NCBI RefSeq assembly: GCF_000010345.1
Contig: NC_009663.1
Coordinates: 868,001-932,000 of the forward strand
Length of the DNA: 64,000 nucleotides
Reading direction: 5' to 3'
DNA from: Sulfurovum sp. NBC37-1
GTDB taxonomy: Bacteria; Campylobacterota; Campylobacteria; Campylobacterales; Sulfurovaceae
Shown: piece by piece, positions 21,962-60,784 of the stretch
How the letters are laid out: each line of letters begins with the position of its first letter
Position numbering within the stretch: the stretch's first letter is position 1
Made by a program: the position numbers and the translations under genes
The notes under the pieces: generated by a model
Told to the model about the DNA's origin: nothing
Seen by the model: the letters and a program-made list of their open reading frames with translations, nothing else
Databases searched by the model: none

Positions 21962-22696
21962 ATGAGAAGTACTTTATCAGCTATATTTTTTACAATTGTA
22001 CTTGGCTTTATTATATCCGGATGTCAATCATCACATAAAGTTCTACCGTCAACAAAGCAAAATGTACTATTTCAATACTCCACTCTTGATGCCTTGCTCC
22101 AAGGTGCCTATGATGGTAATATGAGTTGTGGTGAGTTGAAAGATAATGGTGATTTTGGTTTAGGTACATTCAATGCCCTGGATGGTGAAATGATAGTGAT
22201 GGATGGGCAAATATATCAGGTAGCATCAGATGGTGTTGCACGAGTGATGGATGACAGTATAAAAATACCATTTGCCACCGTAGCATACTTTGAAGCAGAT
22301 CAAACGGTAGCGCTAAAGCAATCTATGGATTGCTCAGAATTAAAAACATACATAGATGATGTGCTGCCTGCTAAAAATATCACTTATGGTATCAAAATAA
22401 AAGGGTTATTCAGTTACATTAAGACAAGAAGTGTTCCACGACAAACTAAACCATACCCTTTATTGGTTGATGTGATTAAAACGCAGCCAACTTTTGAATT
22501 TTTTCAGCAAAGAGGTACCATTGTTGGATTTAGGCTACCTGAATATATAGGAGAAGTAAATGTTGCCGGATATCATTTTCATTTTCTGACACAAGACAAA
22601 AAAGCAGGCGGTCATGTATTGGAGTGCCAAGTGAAAGATGTAATCATAGAGATAGATTATATGAGTAATTGGCAGATACTGTTACCTACTACATGA
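21962..22696 (+). CDS. Acetolactate decarboxylase, exported as a lipoprotein
   Basis: A 244-residue alpha-acetolactate decarboxylase (acetolactate to acetoin and CO2). Family marks are LLQGAYDGNMSCGELKDNGDFGLGTFNALDGEM near the N-terminus, the catalytic-Arg region KTRSVPRQTKPYPL, and the zinc-binding HFHFLTQDKKAGGHVLE. Unlike most cytoplasmic or Gram-positive enzymes, it starts with a lipoprotein signal (ISGC, Cys21), so it should be anchored in the periplasm or outer membrane. The ATG follows GGGAGAAGGAACA. No acetolactate synthase or butanediol dehydrogenase adjoins. The assignment is strong; the purpose of external acetoin or CO2 formation is unknown. Confidence 0.88.
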   Translation: MRSTLSAIFFTIVLGFIISGCQSSHKVLPSTKQNVLFQYSTLDALLQGAYDGNMSCGELKDNGDFGLGTFNALDGEMIVMDGQIYQVASDGVARVMDDSIKIPFATVAYFEADQTVALKQSMDCSELKTYIDDVLPAKNITYGIKIKGLFSYIKTRSVPRQTKPYPLLVDVIKTQPTFEFFQQRGTIVGFRLPEYIGEVNVAGYHFHFLTQDKKAGGHVLECQVKDVIIEIDYMSNWQILLPTT

Positions 22697-23463: not shown

Positions 23464-24132
23464 CTAAACCTTCAGATAAAACCTCTTCATCTTTATCCGT
23501 GCATCCTTAGTTTTGAATTGCCAATCAACTTTGGTCTGTTGATTGTTTCTGTCTTCATTCCAGGTTTTTACTTCTTTTTTCATTGTTTCAATATCGGCAA
23601 TCCTTCCAGCCAGACATTGCCGCTTCAATACACTGAGTTCAATCTCTGCAATATTCAACCAGCTTCCGTGTTTGGGGGTGTGGTGTATTTCAAGACGCTC
23701 TGCCAGACTTCTGGCTACCTGAGGAGAAAAAGCAGTATAGAGCGAAGCGATATTGTGTGTGTTTAGATTGTCCATCACCAAAACAACTTTTTGTGCTTTG
23801 AGATAACGCACTTCAAGCATCTCTTTGATAAAGTGTGCCCAATCGACTCGGGTACGGCTCTGTGTAATTTTGACAGCACGCTTCCCTCCAAGTGCTTCGA
23901 CTTCAAGAAAGATACTGGCAACACCGTTTCGTATATACTCGTCATCCACAAGTTTTGGGTGTCCCGGTGCAGCAGGAATAGGATCTTGTGCCTCACCGAT
24001 TAATTGGATACTTGATTCATCCATACAGACAACGGGGAACTCTGGATCGTAAGGTCGTGCATAGACTTCAAGAACATCTTCCATCGCTGAAACAAAGCTT
24101 GCATTCTGCTTGGGTGGTATCACCAACGGCAT
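23464..24132 (-). pseudogene. IS630-family transposase, C-terminal remnant
   Basis: The last ~220 residues of an IS630-type transposase carrying the DDE domain: VVCMDESSIQL (first D), VLVMDNLNTHN (second D) and HHTPKHGSWLNIAEIELSVLKRQCL (E). Full-length members are about 350 residues with an N-terminal helix-turn-helix part, which is missing: homology stops at VIPPKQNASF near 24120, where IS256-like sequence begins. It therefore looks 5'-truncated and inactive. Confidence 0.88.
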
Positions 24133-24451
24133 GGCAGCAGCCTATGAAGTATCACATCCTAAATTGGTTAAGTTCCTCACAGACAACCTGATGGATGTGC
24201 TGACGTTCCTGGCATTTCCTAAAGAACATCATAGGAAAATCCATTCCACGAATGTACTGGAACGGTTTAACAAGGAGGTAAAGAGAAGAACAAAGGTAGT
24301 CGGTGCTTTCCTGAGTGACAACTCGGTACTACGCCTGTTGGTGCCCCTGGCAGTGGACACCAATGCCAAATGGTTGGATAGAAAGTATGTTTCTTGGGAT
24401 AATTTGGTACAATCTGAAGAGGCTAAGGAAAAATTTACAGAAAATTTTTGA
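24110..24451 (+). pseudogene. IS256-family transposase, C-terminal remnant
   Basis: About 105 residues from the C-terminus of an IS256-like transposase (IHSTNVLERFNKEVKRRTKVVG, then FLSDNSVLRLL). The catalytic D residues and the first ~300 residues are missing. It abuts, and at the ends overlaps, the truncated IS630 gene in opposite orientation. One element probably inserted into or recombined with the other and both then decayed. Confidence 0.85.
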
Positions 24452-26700: not shown

Positions 26701-27834
26701 TTACCGCTTCCGAAAAATCTCCTTCCCATTCCTATACACCGGATAGGTGTACCCTCCTTTGATAAAGTCCACTTTGGGAGCCGTCAGCTCTTTATAGAGT
26801 TCCGGCCTTCGGTCACGCAGGTAGTTGTATTTTGGTGCCGGATGAGTCATCCCGTAGAAACCCGGGATACAGTCAGCTATGAGCATCGTATCCTGTTCGT
26901 GGTTTGCCGCGACGATGATATCTCCGTGTGGGCCGGTAATGATACTGTTGCCGCGGTAGTGCCACTGGTCTTTGCCTCGTCGTTCATAGCCGGCGCGGTT
27001 GGAGTAGGCGAAGAAAATGTTGTTGGCATAGGCATAAGCAGGGATGAGCGTCTTGGAGATGTCAGGGTAGGGGACATTGCTGCGTTTGCCGTCTGGCAGG
27101 GTATAGTAGTTGTCTGCCGCTGTCGGACCTACGATAAGCTTCGCTCCTTTGAGGGCAAGGATCCTTGAAAGTTCGGGGAATTCACACTCATAGCAGTTGA
27201 GCACGCCGACAGGAAAGCCAAAAAAGTGATAAACCTGGTAGTCGCCGTTGCCAAAGGACCAGTTGTCACGTTCTTGCTGGCCGTAGAGGTGGGTCTTGCG
27301 GTAGCTGTTGAGCAGTTTTCCGTGCTCGTCAATGACAGCGATACTGTCGTAATAAGCCAGAGTCCCATCGGAATGTTTGGCCTTTTCGGCATAGGGTAGG
27401 AGAATAGCAATATTGTTTCTACGCGCCAGTTCTCGCGCCTTGGTGACAGCGGGGCCATCCTTGAACTGTGCGACCTTCTTGACCATCGCAGGACTGAGGG
27501 TATAGCCGGGTATATAAAGCTCCGGGAAAGAGAGTAATTGGATGTGTTTCTCCTTTGCCAGTCGAATGGCGTGCTCCATTCGCTTGAGATTCTTTGCCGT
27601 CGCCCCCTCGCCGCTGACAGCCTGTGCCTGATAGATGCCCAGTCGGATTCCTTTGCCCAATTTCGGCGCTTTTTCATAGACCGAAGTCTTGAACTGGAGC
27701 AACCGATAGCTCTGCATTACAGTCTTGTCGTACTGCGGTGTGCCATCGCATGTTGGGTTTGCTTTGTCTCCGGCTGTTGCAGGGGTAGCGATGACTAATA
27801 GCACAATCATCAAAGTTTTCAATACTCTTTTCAT
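26701..27834 (-). CDS. Exported nitrilase-superfamily amidase
   Basis: A 377-residue carbon-nitrogen hydrolase with a Sec signal peptide (MKRVLKTLMIVLLVIATPATA). The catalytic triad is visible as E105 (SFPELYIPGY), K180 (SYRKTHLYG) and C214 (LNCYECEFPE). The C-terminal block YLRDRRPELYKEL is common in amidase and N-carbamoyl-hydrolase branches of the superfamily. It should cleave an amide or carbamoyl group in the periplasm. Together with the exported decarboxylases it could act on amino-acid amides or on carbamoylated amines; the substrate is not deducible. Single gene. Confidence 0.87.
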   Translation of the reverse strand: MKRVLKTLMIVLLVIATPATAGDKANPTCDGTPQYDKTVMQSYRLLQFKTSVYEKAPKLGKGIRLGIYQAQAVSGEGATAKNLKRMEHAIRLAKEKHIQLLSFPELYIPGYTLSPAMVKKVAQFKDGPAVTKARELARRNNIAILLPYAEKAKHSDGTLAYYDSIAVIDEHGKLLNSYRKTHLYGQQERDNWSFGNGDYQVYHFFGFPVGVLNCYECEFPELSRILALKGAKLIVGPTAADNYYTLPDGKRSNVPYPDISKTLIPAYAYANNIFFAYSNRAGYERRGKDQWHYRGNSIITGPHGDIIVAANHEQDTMLIADCIPGFYGMTHPAPKYNYLRDRRPELYKELTAPKVDFIKGGYTYPVYRNGKEIFRKR

Positions 27835-27876: not shown

Positions 27877-28079
27877 GCGAGGATTGTTTTATGGAAAGTT
27901 ATACCAAATCCGTAAATAGAGATTCAACACTCCGCATTCGCCCTATATTAGTCTGCGTATATTTTAATAAAGCAGGGAGTATACTATTAAGAAGGGAGCT
28001 TGAATAATTTGCTATGAAAATGCAAGAGATCGATAGAGATTTACAGGTTCCAAGAAAAACACAAATGAAAGGAGACGAA

Positions 28080-29825
28080 ATGTCACAGAAGATACACCCA
28101 TTCATTAAAGAGATCGCCAAAGCAACAAAAGAGGGAGTAGTTACCCGCCGTGACTTTTTTCAGTACGCGGCAGCGTTTGGTATGTCGATTTTTACTGCAG
28201 GAAGTCTCATTGGCCTGTCGGCTTCGGAAATCAGTGCCGATACACATATCGACTGGAAAGATCTTGCTTTGGAAAGTCCTTTTGAGGTTAAAAATATTCT
28301 GATCCAAAAAGCTGAAACGGACTGTTCGAAATCCGGTTGCAGTATAGTGAATGCCGGCAGGGGAAATCCCAATTTCCTCAATACGCTGGTGCGTAAATCA
28401 CTGGCACTTTTAACGCTCTTTGCTGCAGATATGGCTGAGAAGAATTCTAAAATTATAGATGTAGGATATCGGCAAAGCAAAGAAGGAATGTACAATGCGT
28501 TAAAGAAATTTCTGGCAAAACACAAATATGATACGGAAGCCGATTTTTTGGGCAGAAGTATAGAATATGCAAAAAATGAGACAGAAATGGATGCCGATGA
28601 ATTGGTTTATGAACTCATGGATGGCGTGCAGGGAGATTTTTATCCGGATCCCCCCCGTATCTTTCCCGCCACTGAAAAAATCGTCCGAAAATATCTTGAC
28701 AGGGTTGTTTTCTCCAATAAGCCCCCTCAGGGCGATTTCCATCTTTTTGTAACAGAGGGGGCAACGGCGGCCATGATCTATATTTTCAACTCTCTGAGAG
28801 AAAATATGGTATTGCTTCCCGGAGACAAGGTGGCTATTGTGACGCCTATTTTCTCTCCATACCTGGAACTGCCAGTACTGAAAGATTATGGTCTGGAATC
28901 GGTCTATATCCGTGGTGATGAAAAAATGGGTTGGCAGATTCCCGATAGTGAAGTGTCCAAGCTGAAGGACCGGAAAGTCAAGGCACTCTATATGGTCAAC
29001 CCGACCAATCCAACCTCGGTTTCACTGAATGCGGATACGGTCAAGCGTATGGCCGATACAATACGGATGCACAATAAGGATATGATCATTATCTCCGATA
29101 CCGTGTATGCCAGTTTTGTCGATGAATTCAATACTTTTGGTAAAGAACTGCCTGAAAATATTCTGGGTGTTTACTCCTATTCAAAATATTTCGGGGTTAC
29201 CGGCTGGCGGCTTGGTGTTGTGATGGTTCACAAAAACAATGTGGTTGACCGGCTCATCAAGAAGCTTCCAAGATCCAAGCAGGCCCGCTTGGACTTCCGA
29301 TATCGTCTGGTCTCTACCAAGCCGAATGAGATCCCATTCTATGAACGTCTGGAAATAGACAGCCGGCAGGTGGCTCTAGCGCATACGGGAGGACTTTCCG
29401 GTCCGCAGCAGGTAGCGATGTCCCTTTTTTCGCTTTATGAGCTCATCGACGAAAATTACAGCTACAAAAAATCTATTATGGGTATTCTCAAAAAACGATG
29501 GTCTGCACTGTTTGAAGCCTTGGATATGCCAGAGCCGGAAGGAAACAACCTGACACGCTACTATGCCCTGATTGATTTGAAAAAAATGGCGGAAAAGAAA
29601 CACGGCAGCGCGTTCGCGGAGCATCTGGTCAAAACGCATCCTCTTGAATTTTTATTCAGACTGGCGGAAGACCACCATACGGTCTGTCTACCCGGTGGAG
29701 GATTTGCCGGACCGAGGTGGTCACTCAGGGTGGCATTGGCCAACATTGACGAAGAAGATTGTCGGCAGATTGGGCATGCGATTGTCTCCGTGATGGACGG
29801 ATACAAAAAATCCATGCCGGTCTAA
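28080..29825 (+). CDS. Aspartate 4-decarboxylase / aspartate aminotransferase-like, Tat-exported
   Basis: A 581-residue fold-type I PLP enzyme of the bifunctional aspartate aminotransferase / L-aspartate beta-decarboxylase family (aspartate to alanine and CO2). Family landmarks include NAGRGNPNFLN, FVTEGATAAMIYIFNSL, VNPTNPTS, the PLP lysine K369 in YSYSKYFGVTGWRLG, and the C-terminal LPGGGFAGPRWSLRVALAN. The unusual part is the N-terminus: a twin-arginine motif TRRDFFQ about 22 residues in, followed by a hydrophobic stretch (YAAAFGMSIFTAGSLIGLSA). It is therefore predicted to be exported folded by Tat. The ATG at 28080 has AAAGGAGACGAA; an in-frame upstream ATG adds only 22 residues. An amidohydrolase gene follows 57 bp downstream. 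Confidence 0.9.
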   Translation: MSQKIHPFIKEIAKATKEGVVTRRDFFQYAAAFGMSIFTAGSLIGLSASEISADTHIDWKDLALESPFEVKNILIQKAETDCSKSGCSIVNAGRGNPNFLNTLVRKSLALLTLFAADMAEKNSKIIDVGYRQSKEGMYNALKKFLAKHKYDTEADFLGRSIEYAKNETEMDADELVYELMDGVQGDFYPDPPRIFPATEKIVRKYLDRVVFSNKPPQGDFHLFVTEGATAAMIYIFNSLRENMVLLPGDKVAIVTPIFSPYLELPVLKDYGLESVYIRGDEKMGWQIPDSEVSKLKDRKVKALYMVNPTNPTSVSLNADTVKRMADTIRMHNKDMIIISDTVYASFVDEFNTFGKELPENILGVYSYSKYFGVTGWRLGVVMVHKNNVVDRLIKKLPRSKQARLDFRYRLVSTKPNEIPFYERLEIDSRQVALAHTGGLSGPQQVAMSLFSLYELIDENYSYKKSIMGILKKRWSALFEALDMPEPEGNNLTRYYALIDLKKMAEKKHGSAFAEHLVKTHPLEFLFRLAEDHHTVCLPGGGFAGPRWSLRVALANIDEEDCRQIGHAIVSVMDGYKKSMPV

Positions 29826-29882: not shown

Positions 29883-30950
29883 ATGAAATTGTTTAATGTG
29901 AGATTATCGTGGATATTAGTGGTTTGGATGGTTGTTCTGACCTATGGGGTCAATGCTTCAGAGAAAGGATCACACTTAAACGTTGAATCAGAGAAAAGCA
30001 AATATGAAGTGACAGATGCCCATTTGCATTATGTGGACTTTTTGCAGAAAAGTGACGGAATAAAAGATCTTCTTAAGATGATGGACCGTACCGGAGTCAA
30101 GCATGCGATGCTCAATGGATTGGCGGTTGTGAAAAAATGGAATGCTGTTGATCCCGTTCAGCCAAAATATTATCTTGCCGATGATTCACGAAGCTATTGG
30201 TACAGTGCTACGGATGTTATTGTTGCAAGAGCGCTTGAAACCCTTTCTGCATCAGAGCGCAGAAGATTCCATCCGTTTATCTGCGGGTTTAATCCTACGG
30301 ATAGGAATGCTGTTGACCACCTGAAGCGGATGTTTGCCCTGTATCCGGATACCTGGGAAGGGATCGGCGAGATCCTGACTCGGCATGATGATTTGACAGC
30401 ATTGACATACGGTGAGCAGGCCAGGGCAAATCATATCGCATTGGATGCTGTATATGATTTCGCCGCCGAGCATGACCTGCCTGTAACCATTCACAGTGAT
30501 ATCAGTTCGGTATGGGTACACAAGCCGCTCTATCTGGAAGAGATGGAAGAGGCTGTCAAAAACCATCCAAAAACCCGCATAGTCTGGGCACATGCCGGAG
30601 CCAGCCGGCGCATTGTGGTGCCCAATCTGGCATCCATTATGGGACGAATGCTCAAAACATATCCCAATCTCTGGATAGACCTCTCCTGGGTTGTCTATCC
30701 AAACTATGTCGCTCCACATGGAAAACCCAGCAAAGAGTGGGTAGCCTTGGTCGAAGAGTTTCCTGACAGATTTATGATCGGTACAGATAATATCGGTCAT
30801 TATGACAATTATGAACAGACCATAAAACGCTATTATGTTTTTCTGGATGCATTGTCTCCAAAAACCGCTCGTCTTGTGGCTGAGAAAAACTTTTTGAGCA
30901 TTCTGCCTTTGAGAGTACGCAAGAAGATAGATGCTTCTATTGCGAAGTAA
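29883..30950 (+). CDS. Exported amidohydrolase (amidohydrolase_2-like TIM barrel)
   Basis: A 355-residue metal-dependent hydrolase with an N-terminal signal peptide or anchor (LSWILVVWMVVLTYGVNAS). Metal motifs are DAHLHY (HxH at 47-49), VTIHSDIS, VWAHAGASRR and FMIGTDNIGH (final Asp). The PF04909 group includes hydrolases and also non-oxidative decarboxylases such as ACMSD, so a decarboxylase role is possible given the neighbours. It is probably co-transcribed with the Tat-exported aspartate decarboxylase. Its last 118 bp overlap the end of the convergent asparaginase gene. Confidence 0.82.
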   Translation: MKLFNVRLSWILVVWMVVLTYGVNASEKGSHLNVESEKSKYEVTDAHLHYVDFLQKSDGIKDLLKMMDRTGVKHAMLNGLAVVKKWNAVDPVQPKYYLADDSRSYWYSATDVIVARALETLSASERRRFHPFICGFNPTDRNAVDHLKRMFALYPDTWEGIGEILTRHDDLTALTYGEQARANHIALDAVYDFAAEHDLPVTIHSDISSVWVHKPLYLEEMEEAVKNHPKTRIVWAHAGASRRIVVPNLASIMGRMLKTYPNLWIDLSWVVYPNYVAPHGKPSKEWVALVEEFPDRFMIGTDNIGHYDNYEQTIKRYYVFLDALSPKTARLVAEKNFLSILPLRVRKKIDASIAK

Positions 30951-32020
30951 ATATTTTCTTTAGCCTTTGGGGGGTTCATATTGGGCTGTCCAAGTGCTAT
31001 CATCAGGAGAAGCCTGGCTTTGTACGGGCTCAGGTCTCCAGCCAGAAGTGTGCCCGCTTTAAGAAGGGAGGCACCGCCCCCTTCATCACCGTACAGCGGA
31101 TAGACACCTCCGTGCCGAACCCTGCTGGCGATCACCAGAGGTACATTTTTATTTAGAGCATATTTGCAGGCTTTGAATACAGACTGATTTACATTGCCTG
31201 CACCGACGCCAGCCACTACCAATCCTTTGGCACCATGATCGACAGCATATCGGATCAATGATCCGTCATCTCCCGCGTAAGAGTAGATCAACGGAATATC
31301 CGGCAATGTTTTTGGTGCGGACAGCTTTTTTTTGGCAGGTGCCGCATTGTAACCAATGATCCGATTGCCGACAATATAGCCGAGATACCCATGTCCTCCG
31401 GAATCAAATGTCTGCACATTGGTCGTATTGTCTTTACAGACATACCTGGCACTGTTGATGTATTGGTTCATGGTGACGGTCACTCCCCATTTTTCAGCTT
31501 TGGATGAAGCTGCCTGAAATACTGCATTGTAAAGATTGGCAGGGCCGTCAGGGCTCAGGTCGGAGTTGCTGCGCATCGAACCGACGAAAACAACCGGTTT
31601 TTGGGAATGGAGCGTTGTTTCGAGAAAATAAGCTCCCTCGGCCATCGTATCGGTACCGTGGGTTACCACAACGCCTGCTACTTCCGGGCGTCGTAACACA
31701 GCATCAACTTTCAGACTCAAGTTTCTCCATATTTTGGGTGTCATCTGTGAGCTGTCAATATTGCAGAACTCCACTGTTTCAATTTTGGCTATTTTACCAA
31801 GACCCGGTACAGCTTCCAGCAAGTCTTTTCCTGATACAGCCGGAACGACACCACCCGACACAGGGTCATATTTCATAGCAATGGTTCCTCCGGTAGTGAC
31901 CACTACGACTACGGGCAGGATATCTTTTGTGTCCGGTTTTAAATTTTTTTGTGCATGCAGTTGTGTCCACAAAGCGAGCAATGGCAAAATCAATTTTAGC
32001 AGTGAATGGAATTGTCTCAT
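30833..32020 (-). CDS. Type II L-asparaginase, exported
   Basis: A 395-residue periplasmic asparaginase (asparagine to aspartate and ammonia). Signal MRQFHSLLKLILPLLALWTQLHAQ; the two catalytic threonine regions are VVTTGGTIAMKYD and VVTHGTDTMAEGAYFLE; also FVGSMRS and the conserved IALGQPN end. Start follows a perfect AAAGGAGGTAACG. About 39 C-terminal residues beyond the family's usual end are antisense to the amidohydrolase gene, as if the original stop was lost. Its product is the substrate of the exported aspartate decarboxylase. Last gene of the eight-gene minus-strand run 41636-30833. Confidence 0.92.
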   Translation of the reverse strand: MRQFHSLLKLILPLLALWTQLHAQKNLKPDTKDILPVVVVVTTGGTIAMKYDPVSGGVVPAVSGKDLLEAVPGLGKIAKIETVEFCNIDSSQMTPKIWRNLSLKVDAVLRRPEVAGVVVTHGTDTMAEGAYFLETTLHSQKPVVFVGSMRSNSDLSPDGPANLYNAVFQAASSKAEKWGVTVTMNQYINSARYVCKDNTTNVQTFDSGGHGYLGYIVGNRIIGYNAAPAKKKLSAPKTLPDIPLIYSYAGDDGSLIRYAVDHGAKGLVVAGVGAGNVNQSVFKACKYALNKNVPLVIASRVRHGGVYPLYGDEGGGASLLKAGTLLAGDLSPYKARLLLMIALGQPNMNPPKAKENIYFAIEASIFLRTLKGRMLKKFFSATRRAVFGDNASRKT

Positions 32021-32057: not shown

Positions 32058-32993
32058 TTATTTAAAACCGATAGATTTTTCCCACTCTTTCAAATTCATT
32101 TTCTTTAGTTGCCCAAAGCCCTCTTTGGGGATCGCATCTTTCGCCAGTACGACATAAGGGGCAACGGTCAATGCTGTGCCTACCTCACCGGGCTTCATGA
32201 TGACATAGGCATAGCTGATATACGATCGTTCGTACAAAACACTTTGGTCTTTACCGCAGGCAGCAACACTCCAGAGAACAGATTTTCGGTGTTTTTGGAG
32301 AAATGCATCCAAGTCCTTATCATTGGCATTTTTTGTCCAGACTCCGGCATCTTCGATAAACAGAGAGGCATCTTTGGTGCGGTCTTTTGCAATATTGATA
32401 ACAATGTAAGACCAGACACCATATGATTCATTTTTGGCAGCGTCGGGTTCCCCTTTTTTTGGCCGGTACGATGTGACGCTTTTGTTGGCGCAAATGGTAT
32501 GGGCACCGGGAACCAGAGGAAAACGGCGTTTTCTCTCGGTACCAAAGAGCGCTTTACCCGCCTCAATCAAAGGGGCACCGTCATAAACCTTCAGGTCGGA
32601 GCCATCATACTGTTTGACGGTAAAAAGAGGTTTTTCTTTTTTCTCTTTTATCGTTTCGGAAACAGCAAGGTCATACCCCCATATCTGTCCTGCCAGGCCG
32701 GAAAAAGATGAAGCTGTCAGCATATTGATCTGACCGACATAGGCATCATTTGCTTCCGCCCGATCATAGGCGACAATGTTGTCGAGAAGCATATCATCCG
32801 TTTTTTTAACGGTACCGGCTGAGACTTTCAGCACGGATACATAACCAAGACCCTCCGCACCTGGATTTCCATATCCGTCACAATACTGTTTGAATGGGCT
32901 TATGGCATCTTTGTTGATACTCTCCTGTGCCTGGATAGAACTGAAAAGAGTTCCTGTCAGTACACAAACGGTTAAAATAGTAGAAAACTTCAT
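32058..32993 (-). CDS. hdcA: Pyruvoyl-dependent histidine decarboxylase, exported
   Basis: A 311-residue proenzyme of the pyruvoyl histidine decarboxylase family (histidine to histamine and CO2). Strong family blocks are AISPFKQYCDGYGNPGA, YVSVLKVSAGTVKKTDD, YVGQINMLTASSFSGLAGQIWG, GAHTICANKS, LFIEDAGVWTKN and YVIMKPGEVG. The self-cleavage Ser-Ser is at 95-96, matching the known Ser81-Ser82 site, so it should split into beta and alpha chains with an N-terminal pyruvoyl group. Unlike the classical cytoplasmic enzymes, it begins with a Sec signal (MKFSTILTVCVLTGTLFSSIQA). The start follows AAAGGATCAAAG. Its first four bases overlap the stop of the Lnt-like gene. No histidine/histamine antiporter adjoins. 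Confidence 0.93.
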   Translation of the reverse strand: MKFSTILTVCVLTGTLFSSIQAQESINKDAISPFKQYCDGYGNPGAEGLGYVSVLKVSAGTVKKTDDMLLDNIVAYDRAEANDAYVGQINMLTASSFSGLAGQIWGYDLAVSETIKEKKEKPLFTVKQYDGSDLKVYDGAPLIEAGKALFGTERKRRFPLVPGAHTICANKSVTSYRPKKGEPDAAKNESYGVWSYIVINIAKDRTKDASLFIEDAGVWTKNANDKDLDAFLQKHRKSVLWSVAACGKDQSVLYERSYISYAYVIMKPGEVGTALTVAPYVVLAKDAIPKEGFGQLKKMNLKEWEKSIGFK

Positions 32994-34498
32994 CTTTGAT
33001 CCTTTTTTTGTTTTTTGAAATGATTCCAAACTGCCAAGAAAAACAGCAGTATAAGTACAAACATAGCAATATATGCAAGCAAATTGCCGATGTGAGTATA
33101 GAGGGTGTCCGTTCTCTTAACAGGCAGAGAAGCGATCAATATACTCTCATCGTCTCCAAATGCAGTCATAGCTGCACGGATCTGACCGAGATTGTCAAAT
33201 CCCATTGAAGTAGCCTCATTTGCCGATCTGAACAGGGAAAACCCTCCCCCTACAGCGTGAATTCGTGCCATCAGAGTATGCCGTATCAGCATACCGCGCC
33301 AGTCAAGACCGGGGAGCAGAACCAGGTCGACTCCGAGCCTTGCCTGTGTTAACGATATTTGCGGGAAATCGTAATCATAACAGATAGCTCCCGCCATTTT
33401 ACCATATTTTGTCCTGATAGCTTTCAGTGGGGCACGACCGGGAACACTTCCTTCCCCCGGGACGGGGTGGTGCTTGAGATATGTTTCGGCGATGGTACCG
33501 TCATCTCTCAGCCAGGTGAATTTGTTCTTCATCTTATACAGTTCGCTCTGTTCTTCTTTCGGGAGCAATAGAGCATAGGCTGCAACGATTGCAATATGAT
33601 GCTTTTTCGCCAGCCTGGAAAGTGTCCCCAGCAATGCCTTTTCCCCCTTGGTTGAAACGATTGTCGATACTTCTCCCCAGACGGCTATGTCGGCTCCCTT
33701 CGCGGCGGCTTTGCGTGTGAGTTCTATCAGTCTTTGTGTATTCTGCAGAACATCGGGATCTTCGGGGTTTGGCAGTGCCTTGCTTACTGTCTGACCATTC
33801 GTGATGCCGGCAACAAGTATATGCTTGCCTTGGGGAACGGTACTGAGGCGTAAGTCACCCCATATATTCAGTCCAATAAAAATGATGACAAAGAGCACAA
33901 CGGATATTTTTATATTTGCGAAATTTCTCCGGAGAATGAAGAAAGCTCCCAAAACGGCAGCCCAGGACATCAGTGCCGATATGCCCAGAAATCCAAAAAG
34001 TGACGCTGTTTGGATAAGGGGGAGATTATATACCTGTGTATTAGCAAGAGATCCCCATACGCCGAACGGTGTATAAAATGCTTGCAGATATTCCAAGCTT
34101 ACTATAATGGCCGGAAAGGCAATGATGCTGGCAGTGTCATCAGTCCATTTCCGGATATAATCCCATATCAAAAAGGCAAGATAGTATCGTAGGCCTGTCA
34201 CTACCCCAAACATAATGGATACCGGCAAAGAGATCATTATGGGGTCTGATACTGACTTCGTGAATGTCAATACAGCTCCTACAACAAGGGTAAGCAGGAG
34301 CCATAGACGGCTTTTAAACTCATGATAGAGCGTGACATAGAGCAAGAATGGTATAAGCATAAACCAGCCGAATACTCCTGCGCCGCCACGCATATCAGAG
34401 CTAATCATCAAAAAAGAACCGATAATCAGCAATGAACTCCCGTGAAAGAACCGGTTATTTTTCAAAGATGTATAATCTGATTGTATATGGCTGTCCAA
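32990..34498 (-). CDS. Membrane nitrilase, apolipoprotein N-acyltransferase (Lnt)-like
   Basis: A 502-residue protein with about six to seven TM helices in residues 20-215, a periplasmic nitrilase domain (about 228-465), and a final TM (about 472-492), the layout of Lnt. The triad is E276 (VWGEVST), K342 (TYLKHHPVPGEG) and C373 (GAICYDYDFP). The KHHPVPGEG block resembles the KRHLVPFGE of Lnt. It starts with TTG behind AAGGTAGGTG. Its place inside the decarboxylase operon suggests a specialised N-acyltransferase or amidase rather than the housekeeping Lnt. It overlaps the histidine decarboxylase gene by four bases. Confidence 0.8.
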   Translation of the reverse strand: MDSHIQSDYTSLKNNRFFHGSSLLIIGSFLMISSDMRGGAGVFGWFMLIPFLLYVTLYHEFKSRLWLLLTLVVGAVLTFTKSVSDPIMISLPVSIMFGVVTGLRYYLAFLIWDYIRKWTDDTASIIAFPAIIVSLEYLQAFYTPFGVWGSLANTQVYNLPLIQTASLFGFLGISALMSWAAVLGAFFILRRNFANIKISVVLFVIIFIGLNIWGDLRLSTVPQGKHILVAGITNGQTVSKALPNPEDPDVLQNTQRLIELTRKAAAKGADIAVWGEVSTIVSTKGEKALLGTLSRLAKKHHIAIVAAYALLLPKEEQSELYKMKNKFTWLRDDGTIAETYLKHHPVPGEGSVPGRAPLKAIRTKYGKMAGAICYDYDFPQISLTQARLGVDLVLLPGLDWRGMLIRHTLMARIHAVGGGFSLFRSANEATSMGFDNLGQIRAAMTAFGDDESILIASLPVKRTDTLYTHIGNLLAYIAMFVLILLFFLAVWNHFKKQKKDQR

Positions 34499-35308: not shown

Positions 35309-37150
35309 TTACTGATTTCCCTTCATTACCCCATAAGCTTCACCCATCAGCATATGCTTATAGGTATTTGTGTCGTTGGGAGTTTTAGATGCTGTGATTT
35401 CAAATCCTGCTTTGTCTTGAAACAGTATGACAAAATCAGACCCGCCAAAGAGGAAATTTCCAAGCATATCACCCTTTTTATGAACAATACCGGGTCGGAC
35501 ATCCCCTTCGAAATTGACAGAAGAGACCTGAGCCATCCCCATAGGGATCAGTGCTACCAGACCATACTTTCCTGTATCTACCACCACAACCCCTCTGGTT
35601 TGGGTAAACTGCCAGCCTGTGGAGTCTATGGGGGCATATTTGCCTTGCTTTGCATCCCAGACTACTTCCAGTGAGACATTTTTCACAATATTTTTGACCT
35701 CTTTTATCTCTCCTCTCACAGCAAAATGGTAGCGGTGATAGTCGTTGACATCGAGGAAGGTATGTGTCAGAACTCCGTTGGCAAATGCATCTTTGTAGGG
35801 GCTGTCTTCACCAACCAGATCTTTGACACTGTAGTAGGTTGCAAGCTTGACTTTCAATCCGCCTTCTACTTTGATCCTGGAGTCTTTGTCAATAGCCCAG
35901 GTACCCTGAGGGACAGAATCTGCCGGGGCAACGACGATCGATGGATCGGCAGGTGTGGCAATCGGTCTCATTTCGGGAGACTTCAGGTAGCGGCTGAAAA
36001 AGTCGTTGAAAGTTTTCCAGTTGCTTGCGGGTTCATACCATCCGGTATCCAAACCAAATCGTGGGTCCTTATAGAACTCCTCATAGGTTTTTTTACTCCA
36101 AGACTTCTCTGTATCGAGAAACATTCCCCAGTCGTTGGCAAACGCTCTCGTCCAGGTAGAGAAAGGCTCATAGTATTGGAGCGTATTGTTGTAAAGCCCT
36201 TTTCCTTCAAGCTCTGGGAGGGGTTGGTCGATCAGAAAATAGAAGTAACAGAGACTCTGCATAATCTGCTCACGCAGAAGATGCTTGGGGTGCTTGAGAA
36301 CCTCTGACGGAATCAATTCGACAGCTTTGTCAAGATAGGCATAATAGTCATTGAGATTCTGTACAGGATTGGTTTTGGTATCCGGGTTGACGACTTTTGC
36401 CTTTGCGATCGATTTTTCCAAAAGCCTTTTGAGTTCAGGATTCTTTTTTAGCAGAGTGATAAGCTTTTGGGTAATTGGCTTGTGCGCCTGAGCATCTGTT
36501 GATTTTTTGATGGGATCCACATAGATAAAACTAACAAACCCAAGCTGAGATAGCACCATACCGTATTTTTTGGTGATATGCAGAAATTTGATGTTGTATG
36601 TCATATCACCTACCTGTTCCAGATGCCTGATCGACAACTCATGTTTGAGTGATTTTGTCAACTGTGCTTTTGCCTTCTTTCTTACCTCTTCCTGTGCTAC
36701 TCTCTTTTTGTGGTAGACAAATTCATATTCGGCAGCAAAGCCTCCGATTTTTTTGCCGCTTTTAGGATCTTTGGCCCAGACCCGGCCGACACCGGCTACG
36801 ACCGTATCGCCTTTGACGCCGCTGGCTTTTGCCATGATTGATTCCAGTACAGCACCATGGTGAAACTGTTTTTTAGCTTCCTTCAGTGAAATCTCATACG
36901 ATTGGGGAGGAAGCACGGAGGTGTAGTACATCACATTGAAATTTTCTATGCCGGCATCCTGAAGCGCCAGGTCATAAGAGAATGTTTCGTAGGGATCGGG
37001 TGGTATGCCGTCATTGGACTGACCAGCACCGGTTGTGGCAAAATAGGCGGTGGGGATTCTAACCCCCAGCGATGTGTCGGCATATACTACACTCGAACTT
37101 ATCATTCCAATCAGGAAAACGATACCTGTAAACAGTTTTAACTTTTTCAT
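35309..37150 (-). CDS. Exported fusion: pyruvoyl arginine-decarboxylase domain + PSD-like decarboxylase domain
   Basis: A 613-residue exported protein (signal about 1-24, MKKLKLFTGIVFLIGMISSS). Residues about 28-210 match pyruvoyl-dependent arginine decarboxylase: IPTAYFATTGAG, SYDLALQDAGIENFNVM, the pyruvoyl-forming YYTSVLPP (Thr77-Ser78 in place of Ser-Ser), the conserved Glu in AEYEF, and a C-terminal GFVSFIY strand. After a helical linker, residues about 375-585 match the phosphatidylserine decarboxylase family: FNDFFSRYL, VAPADS, DYHRYHFAVRG, DTGKYGLVALIPMGMAQVSSV, and the processing Gly-Ser in FLFGGSDF (570-571). The ATG at 37150 follows AAGGAAAG. Both halves belong to self-processing pyruvoyl families. 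I know of no described fusion of the two. Likely substrates are amino acids rather than lipids. Confidence 0.85.
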   Translation of the reverse strand: MKKLKLFTGIVFLIGMISSSVVYADTSLGVRIPTAYFATTGAGQSNDGIPPDPYETFSYDLALQDAGIENFNVMYYTSVLPPQSYEISLKEAKKQFHHGAVLESIMAKASGVKGDTVVAGVGRVWAKDPKSGKKIGGFAAEYEFVYHKKRVAQEEVRKKAKAQLTKSLKHELSIRHLEQVGDMTYNIKFLHITKKYGMVLSQLGFVSFIYVDPIKKSTDAQAHKPITQKLITLLKKNPELKRLLEKSIAKAKVVNPDTKTNPVQNLNDYYAYLDKAVELIPSEVLKHPKHLLREQIMQSLCYFYFLIDQPLPELEGKGLYNNTLQYYEPFSTWTRAFANDWGMFLDTEKSWSKKTYEEFYKDPRFGLDTGWYEPASNWKTFNDFFSRYLKSPEMRPIATPADPSIVVAPADSVPQGTWAIDKDSRIKVEGGLKVKLATYYSVKDLVGEDSPYKDAFANGVLTHTFLDVNDYHRYHFAVRGEIKEVKNIVKNVSLEVVWDAKQGKYAPIDSTGWQFTQTRGVVVVDTGKYGLVALIPMGMAQVSSVNFEGDVRPGIVHKKGDMLGNFLFGGSDFVILFQDKAGFEITASKTPNDTNTYKHMLMGEAYGVMKGNQ

Positions 37151-37265
37151 TTTCTTTCCTTCTATCAATAGTTTAGGTTTCATTTGAAACTGAAACCAAC
37201 TCTGAACTGCCTCAAAAGGAGTTTTGATCTTGAGTTCCTTTCTATATCATTATAGCCAGAATTTA

Positions 37266-41947: not shown

Positions 41948-43171
41948 ATGAACAGAATATTGAACCGTTTAATCAAGCTAATAGGTATTGCGCTCTTGGC
42001 AAACACCCTATCGCTCTATGCAGCTCATCTGGATGCAAAGAACCCTTGTTATCAGTCGATTAAAAAAATAGATGAAACATACAAAAAGGATAAAGTATTC
42101 AAATTATTAATGGACCAATCTTTTACGCATATGGTTGAAGCTCCGGAAGGCTATATGCGTGGCGGAAACCCCTGGATAGGCAAAAGCTACAAAGACCTGC
42201 CGCCTTTTCTTGAAGAGTGGTGCGAGTTTCTGCCAAAAGCTATAGGGAGTGGGGATGACGGCTTGAAATATATTCAGGAGATGGATATGTTCAGCTATAA
42301 AAACCCTTTTGCCAAAACATTGTTTCAAAGCAAAACAGGAATGAAGCTTTTTGGTAACTATATGAAAGAGTATGGCCACTTCATGGATACACCGGCCTCC
42401 GGAAGATATATTGCCGAATGGCTTAATGATGACAGGATCGAAAAAGAGGATTATGCCTTGCCTGATCCCAAAGCGGATACTGGCGGGTTCAAAACTTTTA
42501 ATCAATTTTTTTCAAGAAGATTGAAAGATCACAAAGAGAGCCGTCCCCAGACGATGCCAAATCGTGACTATGTTATCACAGCACCTACAGACTGCATTAT
42601 CAATTCTATTCCCCAGGTTTTGATCGATGAAAACACACTGATTGCAACCAAGGGACACCAGAAACTCAATCTCAAACAGATGTTTGATGATTCGAGATAC
42701 TATAAAAAGTTTTTGGGCGGTACGGCAGTATCATGTGTCCTGATGCCAAATACCTATCACCACTACCATTCACCCATAGATGGAAAGATAGTTGAATCCA
42801 AAATTATCAGGGGTGCCCTGTTGGGCATGGACGACTTCCCCTCCTTTGTGCCAAAATACGGCAATGTCGGCTATTACGGTACGGATTTCAATCAGTTCAG
42901 CAGCTATAAACGGGGATACTTTATCGGAGATACCGGTAAATACGGATATGTCGGCATGGTGGCAGTCGGCTTGAGCAATATCGGTTCTATCGTTTTCAAT
43001 AAGAAGTATAAAAATATGACCAGGCCGGTTCCCGTCAAAAGAGGGGATGAATTAGGTTATTTTCTGTATGGAGGATCACTCTTCATAATGTTCTTTGAAA
43101 AAGGGAAGTTCAAATCGGACGCCATCAGAGTCCGGCTCGGAAATCAGATAGGTACTTTTGATACTCCATGA
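41948..43171 (+). CDS. Exported phosphatidylserine-decarboxylase-like pyruvoyl enzyme
   Basis: A 407-residue PSD-family protein with a Sec signal (LIKLIGIALLANTLSLYAA). Family marks are FNQFFSRRLKDHKESRP, VITAPTDC, NTYHHYHSPIDG (270-279), DTGKYGYVGMVAVGLSNIGSI, and the processing Gly-Ser in FLYGGSLF (G376-S377), where cleavage would create the pyruvoyl group. True PSDs face the cytoplasm; this one is predicted periplasmic and has a long extra N-terminal region (30-175). Related PSD-like enzymes, such as PsiD in Psilocybe, decarboxylate amino acids. The stop overlaps the start of the porin gene by four bases, so the two are translationally coupled. Confidence 0.87.
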   Translation: MNRILNRLIKLIGIALLANTLSLYAAHLDAKNPCYQSIKKIDETYKKDKVFKLLMDQSFTHMVEAPEGYMRGGNPWIGKSYKDLPPFLEEWCEFLPKAIGSGDDGLKYIQEMDMFSYKNPFAKTLFQSKTGMKLFGNYMKEYGHFMDTPASGRYIAEWLNDDRIEKEDYALPDPKADTGGFKTFNQFFSRRLKDHKESRPQTMPNRDYVITAPTDCIINSIPQVLIDENTLIATKGHQKLNLKQMFDDSRYYKKFLGGTAVSCVLMPNTYHHYHSPIDGKIVESKIIRGALLGMDDFPSFVPKYGNVGYYGTDFNQFSSYKRGYFIGDTGKYGYVGMVAVGLSNIGSIVFNKKYKNMTRPVPVKRGDELGYFLYGGSLFIMFFEKGKFKSDAIRVRLGNQIGTFDTP

Positions 43172-59113: not shown

Positions 59114-60784
59114 ATGCGGATAGAAAACATCGATGAATCGATCCTCCCTTTTCTGCATAACCACCTCGATCTCTCCTTTTTCCTAGTGCTCGGCATCGGG
59201 TACCTCATAGGGAAGATCCGTTTTGGTTCGGTCTCCCTGGGTTCCGTTGCAGGGGTGCTTTTTGCTGGTCTGATCTTTGGATACTTCGGTTTCAAGATCT
59301 CAAGTTCAGCCCAGATGATCGGTTTTTCCCTCTTTATCTTTTCTGTAGGCTATCAGGCAGGACCCGGTTTCGTCGCCGTACTCAAGCAGGACGGACTTAA
59401 ATATTTTGCACTTGCCGTGGTTGTGGCAACGACCGGTTTTCTCATCGCTGCGGCATGGGCATATTTCCTTGCCCTGCCGCCGGGTATGTCAGCAGGACTG
59501 CTCTCGGGCGGCCTGACCTCTTCGCCTACACTTGCCGCGGCGCAGGATGCAGTACAGTCCGGTTCTGTCACGATGCAGGAAGGCTGGAGCAATGACCAGC
59601 TCATCAAGAACATGTCCATGGGGTATGCAGTTACTTACATCTTCGGACTTGTGGGGTTGATTATGACGGTCCAGTATCTGCCTAAACTGCTTGGTATCGA
59701 TCTGTCCGAAGAGGCGAAACGTTTCAGTACATCCGGCGAAGAGAGTGTCGGACTGCCGGACAATGTCGTGCTGCGTGCCTACCGCATTACAAATCCCGAA
59801 GTGGAGTCACTCTCTCTGGATGAGTTGAGAGACAAGTATTGGGACCGACGTTCTGTTGTAAAGGTCAAAAGAGATGATGCGTTCTTCCCTGTGGATGAGA
59901 ACGGTCTGAAGGTCGGTGACGTCATTGAAGTGCTTGGGCCGCGAAGGTATTTTGCCGAAAAGGTCTCGAAGATCGCAGAAGAGATCGTACCGGAATGGAC
60001 CAGTGAAGATGTACAGGACAGCGCGCAGATCATCGTGGAGAATGATGCCGTTATCGGACGCCCCCTTCATGAACTTGCCATCGGAAGACGTTTCGGCCTC
60101 ATGCTGATGGAAATACGCAGGAAGGGTAAGCGTATCGGATATGATGACAATACTGTGCTGGGAAAGAATGATGTTATTACGGTGCTTGGAACTCCGCACC
60201 AGATAGAAGCGATGGGTGAGTTCATGGGGAAAGTTGAACGTGACGGGGTGGAGACCGATATGATCACGCTTTCCTTCGGTATCGTCATCGGGCTGCTCAT
60301 CGGTACGCTCAGTGTAACGGTCGGAGGGGTTTCCATCGGGCTGGGGTCTGCGGGAGGGCTTCTGGTCTCCGGTCTTTTTATCGGCTTCAGGCGAAGCATC
60401 AAACCGACCTTTGGTCAGTTGCCTGAGGCAACACGCTGGTTTCTCATGGAGTTCGGCTTGCTGCTCTTCATGGCGGGTGTAGGAATGCGTGCCGGGAGCG
60501 GCATCATCGGTACCCTGCAGCAGAATGGCTTGACACTGGTGATTGCAGGCATCTGCGTGACGATCATACCGATCCTCGTAGGGTACTTTGTCGGAAGAAG
60601 GTTCCTGAAGATCTCACCTGCACTCATCTTCGGTGCCATTACCGGGGCGATGACCAGTGGTGCAGCACTTTCGGTGGTCATCAAGGAGGCCAAAAGCCCT
60701 GTACCTGCACTGGGCTATACCGGTACTTATGCCTTTGCCAATGTCCTGCTGGTCATTGCCGGCAGCCTCATCATGATCTTCTAA
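59114..60784 (+). CDS. AspT/YidE-family antiporter (AAEx family)
   Basis: A 556-residue transporter. Two repeated membrane halves (FSVGYQAGPGFV / FMAGVGMRAGSGII; GGLTSSPTLAAAQ / GAMTSGAALSVV) flank two TrkA-C domains (about 215-380), exactly the AspT layout. AspT of Tetragenococcus exchanges aspartate for alanine; relatives exchange other dicarboxylic amino acids. Third gene of the glutaminase-porin operon, so glutamate is a likely substrate here. The aspartate decarboxylase it would classically pair with is 30 kb away and Tat-exported. Confidence 0.9.
   Translation: MRIENIDESILPFLHNHLDLSFFLVLGIGYLIGKIRFGSVSLGSVAGVLFAGLIFGYFGFKISSSAQMIGFSLFIFSVGYQAGPGFVAVLKQDGLKYFALAVVVATTGFLIAAAWAYFLALPPGMSAGLLSGGLTSSPTLAAAQDAVQSGSVTMQEGWSNDQLIKNMSMGYAVTYIFGLVGLIMTVQYLPKLLGIDLSEEAKRFSTSGEESVGLPDNVVLRAYRITNPEVESLSLDELRDKYWDRRSVVKVKRDDAFFPVDENGLKVGDVIEVLGPRRYFAEKVSKIAEEIVPEWTSEDVQDSAQIIVENDAVIGRPLHELAIGRRFGLMLMEIRRKGKRIGYDDNTVLGKNDVITVLGTPHQIEAMGEFMGKVERDGVETDMITLSFGIVIGLLIGTLSVTVGGVSIGLGSAGGLLVSGLFIGFRRSIKPTFGQLPEATRWFLMEFGLLLFMAGVGMRAGSGIIGTLQQNGLTLVIAGICVTIIPILVGYFVGRRFLKISPALIFGAITGAMTSGAALSVVIKEAKSPVPALGYTGTYAFANVLLVIAGSLIMIF

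Follow-up and report, generated by a model that had tools for sequence, protein, structure and literature searches.

In textbooks, aspartate 4-decarboxylase (AspD) is paired with AspT in a proton-motive cycle that runs in the cytoplasm. Several PLP enzymes bear a twin-arginine (Tat) signal: the Tat transport of PvdN requires PLP binding in the cytoplasm, PtaA is exported by Tat with PLP on board (PMC6206403), and PA2531 is another Tat aminotransferase (PMC6085387). Amino acids can also be broken down outside the cytoplasm, as by the secreted asparaginase AnsA of Mycobacterium tuberculosis, which buffers pH by ammonia release (PMC3930563). Here we analysed a 64,000-nucleotide stretch of DNA (the window), whose source genome is a single 2,562,277-bp contig (C1), and which holds an aspD gene with a predicted Tat signal (Table 1).

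Table 1. Features of the window that bear on the predicted export of AspD (a slash marks a predicted cleavage site)
Feature	Position	Strand	Evidence
Acetolactate decarboxylase, lipoprotein-type signal (ISGC)	21962..22696	+	TIGR01252 over cut-off; N-terminus; homologue near Tat-aspD in L149
Predicted exported carbon-nitrogen hydrolase, N-carbamoylputrescine-amidase-like	26701..27834	-	PF00795; TIGR03381 123.5 bits, below cut-off 410
Shine-Dalgarno sequence GGAG ahead of aspD (start 28080)	28071..28074	+	Sequence
Tat-type signal peptide of AspD, residues 1-53, predicted cleavage ISA/D	28080..28238	+	Missing from cytoplasmic AspDs and PDB chains; conserved in 17 homologues
Twin-arginine motif TRRDFFQ, residues 22-28	28143..28163	+	Both R invariant in 18 sequences, codons synonymous-variable
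Uncharged hydrophobic core YAAAFGMSIFTAGSLIGL, residues 29-46 (18 residues)	28164..28217	+	Sequence; 15-residue hydropathy peaks at 1.63
Aspartate 4-decarboxylase domain, fold-type I PLP, residues ~58-578	28251..29822	+	NF006755/TIGR03801 over cut-off; PDB 2zy5 alignment; invariant active-site residues
Predicted exported Amidohydro_2 protein, 57 bp downstream of aspD	29883..30950	+	PF04909 E 4e-12; Sec-type N-terminus
Predicted exported type II asparaginase	30833..32020	-	PF00710/PF17763; TIGR00520 283.2 bits, just below cut-off 314.3; N-terminus ...LHA/QK
Predicted exported pyruvoyl histidine decarboxylase (HDC), self-cleavage motif TASSFSG	32058..33029	-	PF02329, TIGR00541 over cut-off; PDB 1hq6 alpha chain; N-terminus ...IQA/QE
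Predicted exported fusion, pyruvoyl arginine decarboxylase (PvlArgDC) + phosphatidylserine decarboxylase (PSD)	35309..37183	-	PF01862, PF02666; N-terminus ...VYA/DT
AspT-family transporter, 29 kb from aspD, possible alternative partner	59114..60784	+	TIGR03802 438.6 bits, below cut-off 546.95

The aspD gene (28080-29825, plus strand) encodes a 581 aa protein that is a full aspartate 4-decarboxylase, matching both NF006755 (E 1.5e-212, 706.7 bits, cut-off 321) and TIGR03801 (E 5.5e-176, 586 bits, cut-off 435.1) at full length. In the alignment with PDB 2zy5, residues 58-573 of the protein pair with residues 4-520 of the chain (E 1.7e-128); because this alignment begins at query residue 58 and chain residue 4, residues 1-57 represent an added extension. 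The original prediction had put such an extension at about 55 residues, and some 57 residues are indeed missing from the solved structures and from the cytoplasmic homologues, where "cytoplasmic" designates an AspD without a signal-like extension and not a measured location. Residues K315, R37, Y134, R375 and R497 of ASD, which we take to be the Schiff-base lysine and the substrate/PLP residues, are kept as K369, R94, Y188, R429 and R550. K71 and N307 are invariant in the 17 Tat and two Sec-like rows of the alignment, together with K369, R94, Y188, D340, Y343, S366, R377, R429 and R550, which are also invariant in the cytoplasmic rows, and this active-site alignment of Tat, Sec-like and cytoplasmic rows gave no sign of decay. 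The glycine that the window AspD has at the position of ASD R487 was dropped as an argument against activity, since family members have G, S, R, K, A or E there. The window protein is predicted from its sequence to be a beta-decarboxylase of aspartate that catalyses the same reaction as cytoplasmic AspD.

The N-terminus reads MSQKIHPFIKEIAKATKEGVV-TRRDFFQ-YAAAFGMSIFTAGSLIGL-SASEISA/DTHIDW, which corresponds to an n-region, a Tat motif, an uncharged core and a cleavage region, with the likeliest cleavage, by inspection, after residue 53. The twin-arginine motif and hydrophobic stretch that had originally been noticed ahead of the enzyme are therefore confirmed, at residues 22-28 and 29-46. A second in-frame ATG is present at 28014, upstream of the start at 28080, which coincides with the start of the Tat-bearing homologues; a wrong start call as the source of the extension was ruled out by the Shine-Dalgarno sequence, the conserved start and the codon pattern. 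When compared to the Pfam/NCBIfam TAT models, the window signal matched only PF10399, below cut-off (E 0.043), while the signals of the homologues match several Tat models and that of L041 passes TIGR01409 (18.7 vs 16.7 bits). A search with the signal alone (the 67-aa N-terminus against 72,556 plasmids) returned weak matches (E 0.003 to 8), of which the annotated ones were mostly ABC substrate-binding proteins, a class of exported proteins. TatA, TatB and TatC, which the original prediction had proposed to look for, are all encoded in the same genome: tatC (C1:457978-458853) is accompanied by a TatA/B-family gene at 459234, and a further TatA/B-family gene is found elsewhere, at C1:2307505.

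An alignment used as query against the genome collection brought up relatives of the window AspD, and whole-genome searches of two classes then added more. In the collection, a signal of the same type was observed in Desulfogranum mediterraneum (72% identity), a Desulfobulbaceae MAG (76%) and an uncultured Desulfovibrio (57%). Extended AspDs occur in 5 of the 257 genomes of the class of Desulfogranum and in 12 of the 297 genomes of the class of Desulfovibrio, alongside further genomes that have the short form. These searches ruled out a Tat signal unique to the window genome; the hydrophobic N-termini of L079 and L107 were dismissed, as they precede the first plausible start. The Tat-type AspD is hosted by a small bacterial group, mostly sulfate reducers, plus the window bacterium. 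The 17 homologues from Desulfobulbia and Desulfovibrionia (55-76% identical) bear the motif [SN]RR[DE]F[FL][KR], and with the window protein included [STN]RR[DE]F[FL][KRQ] is found at the same place in 18/18 extended sequences, as SRRDFFK (8), SRRDFLR (5), SRRDFFR (2), SRREFFK, NRRDFLR and TRRDFFQ. Both arginines are invariant in the 18 sequences despite being written with 4 and 5 different codons, a pattern of purifying selection on these two residues. The earlier claim that export is real and selected is supported by this, the signal being under purifying selection across a clade. Altogether, we consider it very probable (roughly 0.85, a figure that covers export and not role) that the window AspD is an L-aspartate 4-decarboxylase exported to the periplasm via Tat.

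In order to place this enzyme among its relatives, a maximum likelihood tree of 103 AspD sequences was built with a quick method and SH-aLRT support. The 17 Tat rows form one branch (support 99), within which four Desulfobulbia sequences are the sister of the window AspD (support 100). Together with three unextended Chlamydiae rows and two Sec-like rows they make up a deep clade (support 100), separate from the 81 cytoplasmic rows. The AspD family is over cut-off in just 1 of the 398 genomes of the window's order. On the simplest reading, aspD probably reached the window genome from Desulfobulbia by horizontal transfer, a direction that we infer.

In the mechanism that we propose, AspD would first fold and take up its PLP inside the cytoplasm, as has been reported of PvdN and PtaA; TatABC would then translocate it across the inner membrane in the folded state, and the signal would be removed near ISA/D. 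The dodecamers seen in solved AspDs probably exceed what Tat can carry, which would require export in the form of a smaller unit. In the periplasm, aspartate, coming either from outside or from the exported asparaginase encoded next door, would be converted to alanine and CO2 with the uptake of one proton. For this reaction neither aspartate nor alanine has to pass through the inner membrane, which would make AspT dispensable. In contrast to the cycle of AspD and AspT in the cytoplasm, the reaction would not be expected to yield proton-motive force (PMF). The benefit may lie in a proton-consuming catabolism in the periplasm, in the recovery of alanine and ammonium, or in both.

Most genes between 21 and 49 kb of the window carry export signals, judged by inspection of their N-termini. 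Besides the enzymes of Table 1, this island holds two FrsA-like hydrolases, a C69 peptidase, an OprD-like porin, a 5'-nucleotidase and a peptide-binding protein, and a peptide ABC transporter is encoded there as well. A second exported PSD-family protein is encoded at 41948-43171; the acetolactate decarboxylase gene adjoins that of a TMEM175-type channel protein (PF06736, 22884-23450), and fragments of transposases (DDE_3, and a C-terminal part of one from the Mutator family; 23464-24451) lie on the left side of the island. Inspection bore out the Sec-type N-termini that had been proposed for the pyruvoyl enzymes, HDC and the PvlArgDC-PSD fusion, and showed one on the asparaginase, which had been described as exported. 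The nearest PDB entry to the carbon-nitrogen hydrolase is 5h8i. No solved relative of the Amidohydro_2 protein was found at E 0.001 in the PDB search; its gene is a possible operon partner of aspD, perhaps cotranscribed. HDC is present in 1 of the 120 genomes of the window genome's family, namely the window genome itself, and none was detected in six AspD-clade genomes (four exported, two Chlamydiae), a search in which no control match appeared either. The agmatine deiminase gene is elsewhere in the genome, so a complete exported agmatine pathway is not supported.

The island as a whole mostly does not travel with Tat-aspD, as judged from these HDC searches. A glutamate-decarboxylase-family gene (PF00282) is found near Tat-aspD at L148, L149 and L150 of Desulfobulbia, and at L150 (191-3452) it adjoins Tat-aspD on one strand with a gap of about 120 bp. 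Homologues of the carbon-nitrogen hydrolase (at L148 and L149) and of the acetolactate decarboxylase also lie near Tat-aspD in Desulfobulbia, without clear signals; none of these three kinds of neighbour was seen at L040 in the flank present on its contig. Aspartase-like and amino-acid-permease-like genes were recognised by inspection near Tat-aspD in some Desulfovibrio loci. The originally suggested run from Asn through Asp to Ala stays plausible in the window genome, but only there; none of the other loci read has a homologue of the window asparaginase in a cluster with Tat-aspD.

What the exported enzyme would be for can be read in two ways. Export might serve to scavenge nutrients, be it alanine, ammonium or CO2 to supply an autotroph, or to produce amines, and not to control pH, an explanation compatible with Tat export to which we give nearly even odds. 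It agrees with the C69 peptidase, 5'-nucleotidase, OprD-like porin and peptide ABC transporter of the island, and with the aspartase-like and permease-like genes of the Desulfovibrio loci; however, the decarboxylases of aspartate, histidine, arginine and acetolactate, and the glutamate-decarboxylase-family genes near Tat-aspD in Desulfobulbia, speak at least equally for a proton-consuming role. The recurrence of proton-consuming decarboxylations and ammonia-releasing hydrolyses suggests, from gene company, a control of periplasmic pH, although scavenging explains the genes about equally and the failure to detect HDC in the six other AspD-clade genomes counts against an acid role. More tentatively, the island may constitute a periplasmic alkalinising module, in which decarboxylases and deamidases (for Asp by Tat; for His, Arg and Asn by Sec; for acetolactate as a lipoprotein), relocated beyond the inner membrane, would consume protons before these enter the cell. 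Such a module, if true, would be an extracytoplasmic counterpart of the cytoplasmic decarboxylase-antiporter systems of acid resistance, and the exported AspD clade would be its most widespread part.

The original prediction had further argued from a consistent pairing of cofactor and export route. Its general form, that Tat is used because PLP loads before export, with Tat for PLP enzymes and Sec for pyruvoyl enzymes, finds precedent in PvdN and PtaA and agrees with the Sec-type signals of the three pyruvoyl-family proteins of the island; as a rule we nevertheless hold it doubtful. A single PLP enzyme is recognised in the island, so that a consistent pairing has nothing to be measured on and found no support as stated, and two AspDs with a complete PLP site carry other signals. 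That of L140/L161 (G842, 46% identical) has a clean Sec-like signal, MIMKNFAIRALLTVLTLCVGLLVQGAVLAAEVQ, with no RR, and that of L042 (Elusimicrobia, 53%) has the less clearly Sec-like MRSFKEGRRLAAAVLAGMALCAGSTFEAEG, in which RR is present and the Tat consensus is absent. No further Sec-like AspDs were found in the class of L042 or the family of G842, and both remain single genomes. Moreover BsrV, whose export proceeds via Sec, is an active periplasmic PLP racemase. The Tat-for-PLP logic is sound for the window AspD; as a general rule it is unproven, with exceptions likely. The 18 Tat-type proteins and their two Sec-like cousins form a testable set for whether PLP enzymes need Tat. At L161 (7601-10415) a cytidine deaminase with a Sec-like signal lies directly upstream of the Sec-like AspD, after which come a serine-dehydratase-like protein and a probable permease.

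An aspT gene lies near 57 of the 73 cytoplasmic aspD loci (37/44 among those with full flanks), nearly always within 700 bp. It was near none of the 21 exported-clade and sister loci (16 Tat, 2 Sec-like, 3 Chlamydiae), some of which have short flanks; as the loci are related, these counts describe an association on the tree rather than independent trials. The absence of aspT is expected under export, because an enzyme located in the periplasm can do without an exchanger of Asp for Ala, but it may reflect the history of the clade instead, as the unextended Chlamydiae rows are also without aspT. That the RR signal is a membrane tether or a relic, holding AspD on the cytoplasmic face where the AspT-family antiporter of the same window would feed it in a classical PMF-generating cycle, would draw on an established system (PMC9508256) but is very improbable, given that the arginines, core and cleavage region are conserved under purifying selection, that the AspT-like protein is below its equivalog cut-off and far beyond the spacing of real pairs, and that other Tat-aspD genes have no aspT near them.

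Tat export of AspD, which we prefer, would bear on how this enzyme is understood. A monophyletic, Tat-signalled, aspT-less AspD suggests how the bioenergetic significance of an enzyme can shift when it is relocated: the same reaction would take protons out of the periplasm instead of making PMF. It also points to a little-noticed theme, that of exported decarboxylases in sulfur-metabolising bacteria.

Among the known systems, AnsA resembles the predicted exported AspD in breaking down an amino acid outside the cytoplasm, a functional analogy only, as it is a different enzyme with a secretion route that is partly ESX-5. PvdN and PtaA of pseudomonads, and PA2531, share with the window AspD the combination of PLP enzyme and twin-arginine signal, and are different enzymes with other roles (pyoverdine tailoring); for PvdN and PtaA, export takes place in the folded state with the cofactor bound. 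The closest system is the cytoplasmic AspD with AspT (Tetragenococcus, Comamonas and Pseudomonas type; PDB 2zy3-2zy5, 3fdd), which has the same enzyme domain, catalytic residues and predicted reaction. In this proton-motive cycle aspT stands beside aspD, while the exported-clade genes are without aspT in their flanks, carry an added Tat signal and belong to a separate deep clade. Our literature search found no paper joining "aspartate 4-decarboxylase" with "twin-arginine" and no report of an exported AspD; thus, as far as searched, this clade of relocated AspDs without aspT represents a new form of a known enzyme.
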